Positions 15,634 through 30,258 of a DNA stretch of 64,000 bases are shown piece by piece. The DNA comes from Methylobacterium terrae (GTDB lineage: Bacteria > Pseudomonadota > Alphaproteobacteria > Rhizobiales > Beijerinckiaceae), in NCBI RefSeq assembly GCF_003173755.1, contig NZ_CP029553.1:3620001-3684000 (forward strand). Direction: 5' to 3'. The first letter of the stretch is position 1, and each line of letters begins with the position of its first letter. The position numbers and the translations under genes are program-made. A model generated the notes under the pieces. The model was not told where the DNA came from. It did no database searches and worked only from the letters and a program-made list of their open reading frames with translations.

Positions 15634-16332
15634 ATGATCGACCTCGACTTCCTCGCCTCCACGATCCGGACGCTGCTCGGCGGGCTGCCGCTGACCCTGA
15701 GCCTCACCGCCGGCTCGGTGGCGCTGGGGGGCGTGCTGGCGGCGCTCGCGGCCTGGGGCCGGCTCTCCGGGTTCGCCCCGGCGGACTGGCTCGCCCGCCT
15801 CTACGTCTTCGTGTTCCGCGGCACGCCGCTCCTGGTGCAGATCTTCCTGATATATTACGGGCTCGGCCAGTTCCGGCCGACCCTCCAGGCCTGGGGCCTG
15901 TGGACCTTCTTCCGCGAGCCGTACTGGTGCGCGCTGCTCGCGCTCGCCCTCAACACCGGCGCCTACACGGCGGAGATCTTTCGCGGCGCGGTCCTCTCGG
16001 TGCCGCACGGGGCGCTGGTGGCGGGGCGGGCCTGCGGCATGCCGCGATGGCTGCTGTTTCGCCGCGTCACCCTGCCGCTCGCCACCCGCCAGGGCCTGCC
16101 GGCCTACGGTAACGAGGTGATCTCGGTCGTCAAGGCGACCTCGCTCGCCTCCACGATCACCCTGATGGAGATCACCGGCCTCGCCCAGAAGCTGATCGCC
16201 CAGAGCTTCCGGGCGCTGGAGGTCTTCCTCTGCGCCGGGGCGTTCTACCTCGCCCTCACCTTCGTGATCATCGGCGCCCTGCGGGCCGCCGAGGCCTGGC
16301 TGTCGCCGGACCTGCGCCCGCGCCCCGCCTGA
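15634..16332 (+). CDS. Polar amino acid ABC transporter permease (HisM-like)
   Basis: The 232-residue inner membrane protein is the second permease. It has the motif YVFVFRGTPLLVQIFLIYYG at about 50-69 and the coupling loop HGALVAGRACGMPRWLLFRR at about 128-147, where the usual EAA has become VAG. The ATG at 15634 gives MIDLDFLASTIRTLLGG, the typical start. It lies 13 bases after the first permease. Confidence 0.9.
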   Translation: MIDLDFLASTIRTLLGGLPLTLSLTAGSVALGGVLAALAAWGRLSGFAPADWLARLYVFVFRGTPLLVQIFLIYYGLGQFRPTLQAWGLWTFFREPYWCALLALALNTGAYTAEIFRGAVLSVPHGALVAGRACGMPRWLLFRRVTLPLATRQGLPAYGNEVISVVKATSLASTITLMEITGLAQKLIAQSFRALEVFLCAGAFYLALTFVIIGALRAAEAWLSPDLRPRPA

Positions 16333-26300: not shown

Positions 26301-27269
26301 TCACGCGCTCCCGATCGCGACGCCGGCGATGAGCACCAGCACCCCGCCGAGCACCACCTGGAGGGCGGCGCGCCAGAACGGCGTCTCCATGTAGCGCGTG
26401 CGGATCCCCGAGATCACGAGCAGCTCCACCGCCACCACCAGGGCGGCGAGCACGGTCGCGACCGAAAAGGCGTTCGTCCAGGAATCCGGCACCAGGTAGG
26501 GCAGCGTGTGGCCGAGGCCCCCGACCGCCGTCATGATCCCGCAGACGAGGCCGCGCAGCCACGGCGAGCCGCGCCCGGTGATGCTGCCGTCGTCGGACAG
26601 GGCCTCGGTGAAGCCCATGCTGATCCCGGCGCCGATCGAGGCGGCGAGGCCGACCAGGAACGTCTGCCAGTTGTTGTGGGTGGCGAAGGCGGCGGCGAAG
26701 AGCGGCGCCAGCGTCGAGACCGAGCCGTCGATGAGCCCGGCGAGCCCCGGCTGCACGTAGCGCAGCACGAACAGGCGGTGCGCCGCGCGGGCCTCCTCGT
26801 CGGCGGCGGCGCCCGTCTCCTGCGCGGCGGCGAGCGCCCCGGCCCGGCGGCCGTGGCCGCGCTCGATCTCGGCGAGCCGCGTGAAGAGCTGGCGCACGCC
26901 GAGATCGCGGGACAGCTCCGCCGCCCGCTCGTAGAAGCCGGCGGCCTGCGCCTCCATCGCCTCCGCCTCCCGCCGCATCCGGCCGGCGTCCAGCCCCTGC
27001 CACCAGACCGCCCGGCGGCGGGGAAAGCCCCGCACATCCTCGCGCCGCAGGGGCGGCAGGTGCTCGCCGAAGCGCTGCCGGTAGGCGGCGTAGAGGTCGT
27101 CCCGGTGCCCCCGCTCCTCGTCGGCCATCGCCTCGAACAGCCCGGCGGAGCCCGGCAGATCGGCCCGCAGGCTCTCGGCGAAGCTGCGATAGATGCGGGA
27201 ATCCTCCTCCTCGCTGGCGATGGCGAGCGCCAGCACCTCGCGCTCGGTGAGATCGGTCAGGGCCATCAT
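26301..27269 (-). CDS. mbfA: Membrane-bound ferritin MbfA (rubrerythrin plus VIT1 domain)
   Basis: MbfA exports ferrous iron and protects from iron and peroxide stress. The 322-residue product has an N-terminal ferritin-like di-iron domain with SEEEDSRIYRSFAE and MADEERGHRDDLY at about 19-61 and a second pair EAQAAGFYERAAE and EIERGHGRR at about 107-140. It is followed by a VIT1/CCC1-type membrane domain of about five helices (from QPGLAGLIDGSVSTLAPLFA onward). In rhizobia and Agrobacterium mbfA is repressed by Irr; a palindromic operator sits right upstream here. The start is ATG 27269 or the next ATG. Confidence 0.9.
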   Translation of the reverse strand: MMALTDLTEREVLALAIASEEEDSRIYRSFAESLRADLPGSAGLFEAMADEERGHRDDLYAAYRQRFGEHLPPLRREDVRGFPRRRAVWWQGLDAGRMRREAEAMEAQAAGFYERAAELSRDLGVRQLFTRLAEIERGHGRRAGALAAAQETGAAADEEARAAHRLFVLRYVQPGLAGLIDGSVSTLAPLFAAAFATHNNWQTFLVGLAASIGAGISMGFTEALSDDGSITGRGSPWLRGLVCGIMTAVGGLGHTLPYLVPDSWTNAFSVATVLAALVVAVELLVISGIRTRYMETPFWRAALQVVLGGVLVLIAGVAIGSA

Positions 27270-27280
27270 GCGCGCGCTCC

Positions 27281-27325
27281 TGTTTGGAATGGCTCCAATC
27301 TATTGATTGGAGCCATTCCAAACAA
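27281..27325 (-). promoter_or_regulatory. mbfA promoter covered by a 20-bp palindrome (Irr/ICE-like operator)
   Basis: Arms 27281-27300 and 27305-27324 are perfect inverted copies with a four-base spacer. Each arm reads TTTGGAATGGCTCCAAT, close to the Irr control element with TTTRGAA...TTCYAAA symmetry. On the minus strand a promoter fits the same bases: -35 TTGTTT (27325-27320), 17 bases, -10 TAGATT (27302-27297). The mbfA ribosome site AGGAG lies just beyond. Occupation would block transcription; Irr as the regulator is inference from the mbfA family. Confidence 0.65.
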
Positions 27326-27359: not shown

Positions 27360-27486
27360 GTCACGCCACCCCCTCGACGAACCGGCGCGCGCCCGGCATT
27401 CTCTCGAAGCTGGGCATTAGGTATTTGGTCCCATATCGGCGACGCTCTTTGACATCGTGAATGGTGCCAGATACTTATCTGGCAGA
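27360..27486 (+). promoter_or_regulatory. Probable CRISPR leader
   Basis: This is a relatively A/T-rich stretch between the mbfA promoter and the first CRISPR repeat. It holds a TTGACA box at 27449-27454, a weak -10 (TACTTA, 27472-27477) 17 bases on, and the palindrome TGCCAGAT-ACTT-ATCTGGCA at 27465-27484, which ends two bases before the first repeat. The orientation of the repeat and the decayed repeat at the far end both put the leader on this side. Confidence 0.6.
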
Positions 27487-29352
27487 GGCTCCCCCGCCTA
27501 CGCGGGGATCGACCCGAGACGGGACAGGCACAGACCCGGTCGGGCCGGGCTCCCCCGCCTACGCGGGGATCGACCCCGATCCCGCGGGTAGGGCGGGAAG
27601 GCGGCCCCGGCTCCCCCGCCTACGCGGGGATCGACCCCCGACCTCGACCAGCTGGGACCTCGTCTCGAAGGCTCCCCCGCCTACGCGGGGATCGACCGTA
27701 GACCCAACGCCGGTGCCCCTCGGCCTCGAGGGCTCCCCCGCCTACGCGGGGATCGACCGTCGGGCCCGGGGAGAGGGCCGAAGCCGAAGGAGGCTCCCCC
27801 GCCTACGCGGGGATCGACCCCCGAAGCCGCACGAGGGACACTAATGACTGAAGGCTCCCCCGCCTACGCGGGGATCGACCCGTGTAGCTGTCGTCCTTCG
27901 CCGCCTTGGCGACGGCTCCCCCGCCTACGCGGGGATCGACCCTCGGCGGCTATCGCGTGCTGCTGACCTGGATCGGCTCCCCCGCCTACGCGGGGATCGA
28001 CCCTCGCTGGCCTCGGGCGCTTCGAAGTCGAAGTAGGCTCCCCCGCCTACGCGGGGATCGACCCGTGTCGGCCCTGACGACGCTCGGCGCCACCCGGGCT
28101 CCCCCGCCTACGCGGGGATCGACCCCCCTCGTCGAAGCTGACCGACCGGCAAGTCGCGGCTCCCCCGCCTACGCGGGGATCGACCCGATCCTAAGGCCGA
28201 ACCTTGGGCCGACGAGCCGGCTCCCCCGCCTACGCGGGGATCGACCCGTGCGGTCAAGTTGCGTGCGTAGACGCGATCCGGCTCCCCCGCCTACGCGGGG
28301 ATCGACCCTGGCCGACCTCTTCGAGCGTGCCCGTGCCGTCGGCTCCCCCGCCTACGCGGGGATCGACCCCTCGCGACGCTCACGGCCTTCGGGGCGACCC
28401 GGGCTCCCCCGCCTACGCGGGGATCGACCCCAGGTCTCGGCGATCGCGTCGGTCCCGACCGCGGCTCCCCCGCCTACGCGGGGATCGACCTTCAGACGCC
28501 GGCATCACGCCCCCGTCTCGTCCTCGCAAGCGACGGCTCCCCCGCCTACGCGGGGATCGACCGGCTTCGGGTTCTCTAGCGGCGAGCACATGGTCGGCTC
28601 CCCCGCCTACGCGGGGATCGACCCCAGCATCCAGTTTCCAGAGCGCTTGAGTTTCCGGCTCCCCCGCCTACGCGGGGATCGACCTTTTCTTATTCATCCG
28701 TATGGCGGGGCGTCGAAGGCTCCCCCGCCTACGCGGGGATCGACCCCCTCCGACCACGCCGATGATGCCGCCAAGCCAGGCTCCCCCGCCTACGCGGGGA
28801 TCGACCCCACGCATCCAGGCCGGCGACGCCGGAGCGGAAGGCTCCCCCGCCTTTGCGGGGATCGACCCTGCCTGCCGCGGGCCGACGGCTACGGCCCGTT
28901 GGCTCCCCCGCCTACGCGGGGATCGACCCCGATAGGTGTCCTGGTCCTCGATCAGCGTGTCGGCTCCCCCGCCTACGCGGGGATCGACCTGCGTGGCTCG
29001 GCCAGACGCTCGACATGCTTAAGGCTCCCCCGCCTACGCGGGGATCGACCCCCGCCGCGCACTTCCAGTTGATGGAGTTCGCGGGCTCCCCCGCCTACGC
29101 GGGGATCGACCCTCGGACAGGGGTGCGACCTGAGCTGCGGAGTGGGCTCCCCCGCCTACGCGGGGATCGACCCGCCGTGTTCTTCGCGGTGTCCACCTGG
29201 ATCTAGGCTCCCCCGCCTACGCGGGGATCGACCCCCGGTTTGCCGCCGCGATCGCTTCGACGAAGGGGCTCCCCCCGCCTACGCGGGGATCGACCCCGGG
29301 GAAATTTGACGGCCAGGGTTAATCCGTGGGCTCCCCCGCCTACGCGGGGATC
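27487..29352 (+). CRISPR. CRISPR array, type I-E-like repeat, 31 repeats and 30 spacers
   Basis: The 29-base repeat begins GGCTCCCC and ends GATCGACCC. It can fold with a six-pair stem CCCCGC/GCGGGG around the loop CTAC, the layout of type I-E repeats. Repeats recur every 61 bases, so spacers are 32 bases. The one exception is a 43-base spacer at 28492-28534. Base 29 of the repeat is C in 24 of 30 cases, G in three and T in three. The repeat at 28840 has CTTT for CTAC, the one at 29267 has an extra C, and the last (29329) loses its final bases. No cas gene is present in the window. Confidence 0.97.
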
Positions 29353-29526
29353 CCTGCCGAAACCGACCCCCGTCGCAACGCGGGTGTGGTGCCGCACGCG
29401 GCCGACGGTTGCCTCGCGGTCCCGAACGGAGCATGACGGCGCCCGGATTCGCGGGGGGGCGCCCGCGTCGCGTCCCGCCGCGTGCCCCCCTTCCCTTGGC
29501 GTCCCCTTCCCGAGCGTTTCGTCCGC

Positions 29527-30258
29527 ATGAGCGTCGTCACCCGCATCGCCCGCAGCCGGGCGGCCCAGGAGAGCCTCGGCTTCCTCGGCGCGAGCTACCT
29601 GAAGCTGGTGCGCCGCACGAATCGCTTCAGCCTCGACCCGCCCGATGCCTACGACTGGCTGACGCCGCTGCGGCCGTTCATCGCCGCGATGTGGCACGGC
29701 CAGCACCTGATGGTGCCGTTCGTGCGCCGGCCCCAGGACCGGGTCGCCACGATGGTGTCGCGCTCGGTCGACGGGGGCGTGAACACCGCGGTGCTCGAGC
29801 GGATGGGCGTGCGGGTGATGCGCGGTTCCGGCGCCCGGCGCTCCAGCGACGTCTGGGCCAAGGGCGGCGTGCAGGCCCTGCGCGGCTGCCTCAAGGCGCT
29901 CGAGGGCGACGAATCGGTGGCGTTCAGCGCCGACGTGCCGAAGGTGTCGCGGCGCTGCGGCGAGGGCATCGTGCTGCTGGCGCGGATGTCCGGCCGGCCG
30001 GTGGTGCCGACCGCCGTGGTGACGAGCCGCTACATCCAGTTCGACAGCTGGGACCGGGCGAGCCTCGGCCTTCCCTTCGGCCGCGGCGTGATGGCCTTCG
30101 GCGAGCCGATCGCGGTCCCCCGCGACCTCGATGCGGCGGGGATCGAGGCGGTGCGCCAGCGCATCGAGGCCGACCTCAACGCGGTGCATGCCCGGGCCTT
30201 CGCGCAGGTCGGCCGGATCGACCCGGTCCACACCCGGAAAGGGGCTCCGGCCCGATGA
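29527..30258 (+). CDS. DUF374 lysophospholipid acyltransferase family protein
   Basis: The 243-residue product fits the DUF374 family, distant relatives of lysophospholipid and lipid A acyltransferases often encoded next to waaA. Seen features are WHGQHLMVPF at about 57-66 (catalytic His), SRSVDGGVNTAVLERMGVRV and FSADVPKVSRRCGEGIV. It probably acts at the inner membrane in lipid A or phospholipid acylation. I chose the ATG at 29527, since the preceding in-frame codons look non-coding. The ATG of waaA overlaps its stop. The space from the array end to this start (174 bases) holds no gene. Confidence 0.85.
   Translation: MSVVTRIARSRAAQESLGFLGASYLKLVRRTNRFSLDPPDAYDWLTPLRPFIAAMWHGQHLMVPFVRRPQDRVATMVSRSVDGGVNTAVLERMGVRVMRGSGARRSSDVWAKGGVQALRGCLKALEGDESVAFSADVPKVSRRCGEGIVLLARMSGRPVVPTAVVTSRYIQFDSWDRASLGLPFGRGVMAFGEPIAVPRDLDAAGIEAVRQRIEADLNAVHARAFAQVGRIDPVHTRKGAPAR

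Follow-up and report, generated by a model that had tools for sequence, protein, structure and literature searches.

A long CRISPR array at a conserved mbfA-DUF374 site in Methylobacterium terrae, probably served in trans by a distant type I-E cas locus

The window that we analyzed, a stretch of 64,000 nucleotides of Methylobacterium terrae (bases 3,620,001-3,684,000 of a single 6,162,702-base contig, G000:C1), contains a CRISPR array, here termed array W, which repeat detection and core matching place at 27487..29357 on the plus strand. It consists of 31 repeats of 29 nt and 30 spacers; the first repeat begins at 27487, and the final one (29329..29357, plus strand) has a degenerate 3′ end that marks the leader-distal end of the array. 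To the left, on the minus strand, lies an mbfA-like gene (26301..27269) whose product carries a rubrerythrin domain and a VIT1 domain in Pfam and which we take to be mbfA. To the right, on the plus strand, lies the gene of a DUF374 protein (29527..30258), recognized by Pfam and from relatives, which served as the marker for the conserved site. A long palindrome at 27283-27322, upstream of mbfA, is probably an iron-response operator by our assumption, and the related sites compared have a similar one at the equivalent position.

The first-pass annotation had described 31 near-identical 29-base repeats, and the count and the likeness both hold: a 28-base core is exact in 28 of the 31, the others being one repeat with two mismatches, one with three in register (a one-base shift) and the 3′-degenerate terminal repeat. 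The spacers are 32 nt long in 28 of 30 cases, with one of 33 nt and one, W17 (28492..28534, plus strand), of 43 nt instead of 32. Together with a stem of 6 pairs in the folded repeat, these lengths give array W the ~29-nt repeats, the palindromic stem and the ~32-nt spacers of a type I-E array. The last base of the repeats is variable (C, G or T); in type I-E systems this base is expected to arrive with the spacer. A search of the 6.16-Mb genome with the repeat core, allowing up to 3 mismatches, gave 52 matches, and the reversed core gave 0. A tandem repeat or false CRISPR was rejected for array W, since its 30 spacers are all different and several match mobile elements. No promoter was recognized at the array.

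Genome-wide searches for Cas1 (one match), the Cas3 core (six matches) and Cas7 (one match) found no cas genes inside the window, as had been claimed from the window alone, and placed the single Cas1 and Cas7 matches near 3.39 Mb, at the same place as the best Cas3 core match (148.3 bits, cut-off 102.45). Another frame with a Cas3 core, near 0.58 Mb, totals 103 bits, barely above the cut-off, and is taken to be another helicase. At the cas locus (L002) the genes cas3, cas8e, cas11, cas7, cas5, cas6e, cas1 and cas2 follow in one direction and lead into a 12-repeat array, which makes up a complete type I-E cas gene set; cas3 was assigned by its core domain and the other seven genes by family, with Cas6e scoring under the NCBIfam cut-off (40.2 vs 45.2) yet above that of Pfam. 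The cas3 frame that carries the Cas3 match has 880 aa, and an 850-aa frame at cas3 is without a family match. Of the cas genes found, cas3 is the nearest to array W, ~249 kb off on the same contig, and thus no cas operon lies just outside the window. A third array, array R, lies near 3.236 Mb and has 11 repeats, the last of them degenerate.

The leader of array W (27430..27486, plus strand) was delimited by aligning the leaders of the three arrays of the genome, to all of which ~60 nt are common (BLAST of the W leader: E 1.3e-23 and 1.9e-21), so that array W shares its leader with the array beside the I-E cas genes. The first-pass annotation had described the stem as type I-E-like and suggested help from a Cas locus elsewhere in the genome, and both proposals are supported: the leader is the same as, and the repeat nearly the same as, that of the array beside a complete I-E locus on the same contig. 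The check it had proposed, a search of the genome for cas genes (here with Cas1, the Cas3 core and Cas7) and for arrays with the same repeat, recovered that one complete I-E locus and two further arrays. The designation of array W as an orphan array was rejected, since a cognate cas locus is present in the genome. One loop base of the repeat is T in 31/31 repeats of array W, C in 12/12 of the cas-adjacent array and C in 10/11 of array R, which suggests that after their separation every array expanded from a first repeat of its own.

The window spacers for which a target gene could be named match virion genes. W25 (2 mismatches) and W26 (5 mismatches) fall in a P22-like portal gene and W23 (5 mismatches) in a head gene, all on contig G031:C44, which IMG/VR also lists among its viral contigs (L166, equal in length and 100% identical across the portal gene). 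W10 (3 mismatches) falls in a tail-sheath gene of G016:C35, and W16 (3 mismatches) matches that contig too, outside any named gene. From the other arrays, R10 of array R (2 mismatches) lies in a TrbI conjugation gene and C3 of the cas-adjacent array (2 mismatches) in no named gene. A control with reversed spacers, at up to 8 mismatches, was empty for six loci and gave 2 matches in the W30 locus, L158. Because the spacer search scored no more than two candidates in each of the 111 genomes, an absence of matches in it means little. A comparison of all 51 spacers of the genome with 50,697 annotated phage records gave no match.

We then considered the triplet that precedes the targets, comparing 251 spacers of related arrays with 44 loci (720,346 bases) at up to 6 mismatches. 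This gave 21 matches, and 0 with the spacers read backwards; as several of the loci had been fetched because they matched, this yield is not a rate. Removal of three matches in L166 that duplicate L155 left 18 distinct matches, of which 10 are preceded by AAC, 2 by AAT and 6 by another triplet. These six belong to C3 (CAG), W30 (AGA), W26 at three sites (TCC or TGC) and one G072 spacer. For the window spacers alone, AAC stands before 6/10 matches. The spacers match mobile elements behind a consistent motif, with AAC in 10 of the 18 cases. None of the 251 spacers is shared between genomes, and the only two pairs with at least 22 matching positions both lie inside one genome. The near-unmutated repeats and the lack of any spacer common between genomes among these 251 lend indirect support to a recent activity of array W.

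Spacers aimed at cas genes have been reported for the orphan I-F arrays of E. coli, in the part of that study available (PMC8616872). This was not supported here: the 251 spacers gave 7 matches in 10 cas-region loci at up to 7 mismatches, the best with 5 mismatches, in a count that excluded the spacers' own exact matches and was made without a backwards control, and no spacer from the arrays of G001, G031 and G109 is among the 7.

Of 111 genomes of the genus, 13 show a match to the leader or the repeat, and 16 have the DUF374 neighbor at E 1e-110 or better. An array lies between mbfA and DUF374 in 8 of these 16 DUF374-bearing genomes, with 36 repeats in G011, 34 in G002, 31 in M. terrae (G000) and 19 in G106, and with far fewer in G001 (5-6), G109 (4), G024 (2-3) and G031 (2). 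One more genome, G072, has a repeat-like relic at the site (22/29 positions; best of 300 shuffles 20, reached in 3), and the repeat-like stretch of G005 (20/29) is reachable by chance. No array was found in G010 and G036, where the whole gap was examined, in the 900 bases before DUF374 of G004, G016, G032 and G064, or at the site in the more distant G013 and G101; in G004, mbfA had no match beside DUF374. In the DUF374 gene tree the 8 array-bearing genomes fall in a 14-row group (support 93/92) that is unresolved inside, and this tree does not prove a single origin of the site arrays. Where a genome has both a site array and a cas-adjacent array, the site array is the longer in 4/5 cases (31 vs 12 repeats in M. 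terrae, 36 vs 6 in G011, 19 vs 3 in G106 and 34 vs 10 or 11 in G002); the fifth, G024, has two very short arrays and a contig that breaks off shortly past the cas array. Against named genomes, the leader pattern gave one match, in Enterovirga aerilata (L039, NZ_JABEPP010000004.1).

Cas1 matches were found in 14/111 genomes and separate into a lineage A (Cas1 97-100%; G000, G011, G036 and G106), a lineage B (Cas1 ~60-80%; G002, G010, G024, G072 and G101) and five further genomes with 34-41% only. Within lineage A, Cas1 identity to G011, G036 and G106 is 97-99% and that of Cas2 ~94-98%; we do not claim a recent transfer of the cas locus, since alongside these near-identical proteins the other Cas proteins are only ~74-89% identical. 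In G002 the 34-repeat site array (L101) has a leader of the lineage A type and a loop of its own (GCAT), and the cas genes are of lineage B, with cas1 apparently frame-shifted; the Cas1 match of G101 is broken. No cas1 match was found in G001, G031 and G109 (completeness 100, 99 and 97%), all of which have a site array that is short and partly degenerate. At ~2932-5658 of L113 (G031:C48:3000-15000), a deletion has joined cas3 to cas2 in one reading frame, next to an array of a single repeat.

The gap between cas3 and cas8e at the cas locus of M. terrae, outside the window, contains a degenerate mini-CRISPR (L002 16041-16124), composed of a repeat-like unit, a 26-nt spacer and a second repeat-like unit, on the plus strand and opposite to the operon. 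With the spacer borders drawn by eye according to the 29-nt register of the repeats, this spacer agrees at 21/26 positions with a site in the same gap (L002 15749-15774, plus strand), which is preceded by AAC at 15746-15748; all ten seed positions (1-5 and 7-11) match and position 6 is mismatched. Two repeat-like units around one spacer occur in 9/9 cas3-cas8e gaps examined, including that of M. terrae, and in 8 of these 9 loci all ten seed positions find their match inside the gap itself, preceded by AAC in 7 cases and by AAA in one (G036). Six of these 8 have a mismatch at position 6, which is matched in G002 and G010; G101 has no full seed match in the gap (8/10 positions). In single-base shuffles for each locus, a full seed arose in 0-2 of 300 and a seed with AAC in 0 of 300. 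The upstream repeat has degenerated strongly in M. terrae and G106, whose spacers measure 26 or 25 nt. No sigma-70-like promoter was recognized on the operon strand of the gap.

Five seed bases have been reported to be enough for binding by the E. coli Cascade, with position 6 flipped out, and interference to require much longer pairing than the seed, in the portions of that article available (PMC5904413). Autorepression by CreR has been reported for types I-B, I-E and V-A, again from partial texts (PMC13131331; also PMC12737573 and PMC12948488). Since short seed pairing suffices for binding and CreR is known in type I-E, the element is most simply a CreR, and we consider it likely to be one, with a predicted role as a repressor. 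Like CreR, it is a degenerate mini-CRISPR next to cas genes, and its spacer has a partial match upstream of cas8e that follows a PAM-like triplet; it differs in that two different spacers and two orientations are found here in two cas lineages, and no promoter was located for it. Of the two publications found on Methylobacterium, CRISPR and type I-E, neither concerns such an element by its title, and the available part of PMC10013973 contains nothing on CreR.

Taken together, these data indicate that array W is very probably the largest memory bank of a chromosomal type I-E system and is served in trans. This explanation draws on the leader and repeat common with the cas-adjacent array, the complete cas set on the contig, the phage and prophage targets mostly behind AAC, and the conserved address in relatives. 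Counting against it are the loop base unlike that of the cas-adjacent repeat, the non-uniform triplets, the lack of a match among the phage records, the score of Cas6e below the NCBIfam cut-off, the 2 backwards-control matches in L158 and the lack of a recognized promoter. In such a system, Cas1-Cas2 would add spacers to array W at the leader end in trans, Cas6e would cut its transcript, and Cascade and Cas3 would use its crRNAs for interference in trans. The same crRNAs might compete with the CreR-like RNA for Cascade, in which case cas expression would follow crRNA abundance.

A remote array served in trans is a known arrangement and ordinary in kind. In E. coli, several arrays (CRISPR-I and CRISPR-II) are served by one I-E cas locus, and the system of array W resembles it in its 29-nt repeat, 32-nt spacers, shared leader and complete gene set, and in the placing of one array next to the cas genes with the others at a distance; it differs in that the remote array lies 249 kb from the cas genes and is the longest in the genome. 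A survey, as far as its available text goes, found remote arrays to be shorter for most types, I-E included, an effect that nearly vanishes when the repeats agree (PMC12814883), and here the repeats of array W and the cas-adjacent array agree except for the one loop base. Array W also resembles the isolated or orphan arrays described in PMC5294841 and PMC8616872, both available in part, in having no cas genes within 10 kb, and the arrays of G001, G031 and G109, without a cas1 match, fit the idea of remnants; the difference is that a cognate cas locus exists in the genome of array W. What distinguishes this system is its well conserved address together with a likely CreR partner.

A broader reading, which we regard as doubtful although the G002 array is in line with it (34 repeats with the W leader type in a genome with only lineage B cas genes), would make the mbfA-DUF374 gap a lasting address of immune memory, independent of any one cas locus. 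The array would be inherited by descent, served in turn by different I-E lineages and kept as the main archive while cas genes are replaced or lost, with their level tied by CreR to the total crRNA supply. It is improbable that array W is instead a silent relic, neither extended nor used any longer by the distant cas locus: G001, G031 and G109 have indeed kept arrays at this address with no cas1 match, but these are short and partly degenerate, whereas array W is long, almost unmutated and has kept its leader in a genome with a complete cas set. Still less probable is that a different cas lineage, since lost or replaced, built array W and that the present cas locus arrived afterwards. The loop base that sets array W apart from the cas-adjacent array and the combination in G002 of a lineage A leader type with lineage B cas genes would fit such a history, but the W leader closely matches that of the present cas-adjacent array. 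That array W mainly makes regulatory RNAs against host genes is hardly credible. In its favor, a mini-array with regulatory features does seem present in the genome, albeit at the cas locus; against it, the W spacers with a named target gene match virion genes and, unlike a conserved regulator, no spacer is common between genomes. Self-matches were covered by the search that scored two candidates per genome.

The mbfA-DUF374 site offers a natural series within one genus: arrays that are long and accompanied by cas genes, one that is long in a genome of another cas lineage, and others that are short and decayed where no cas1 match was found. This series allows testing to what extent a remote array relies on its cas locus and whether the leader of one cas lineage can be served by another, and through the CreR-like elements a connection of a distant array with cas expression levels becomes testable.

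Within array W, the spacers W10 (28065-28096) and W15 (28370-28401) are similar to each other and match the same tail-sheath site, with 3 and 8 mismatches, respectively, a likeness that looks as if they had been acquired from related phages.
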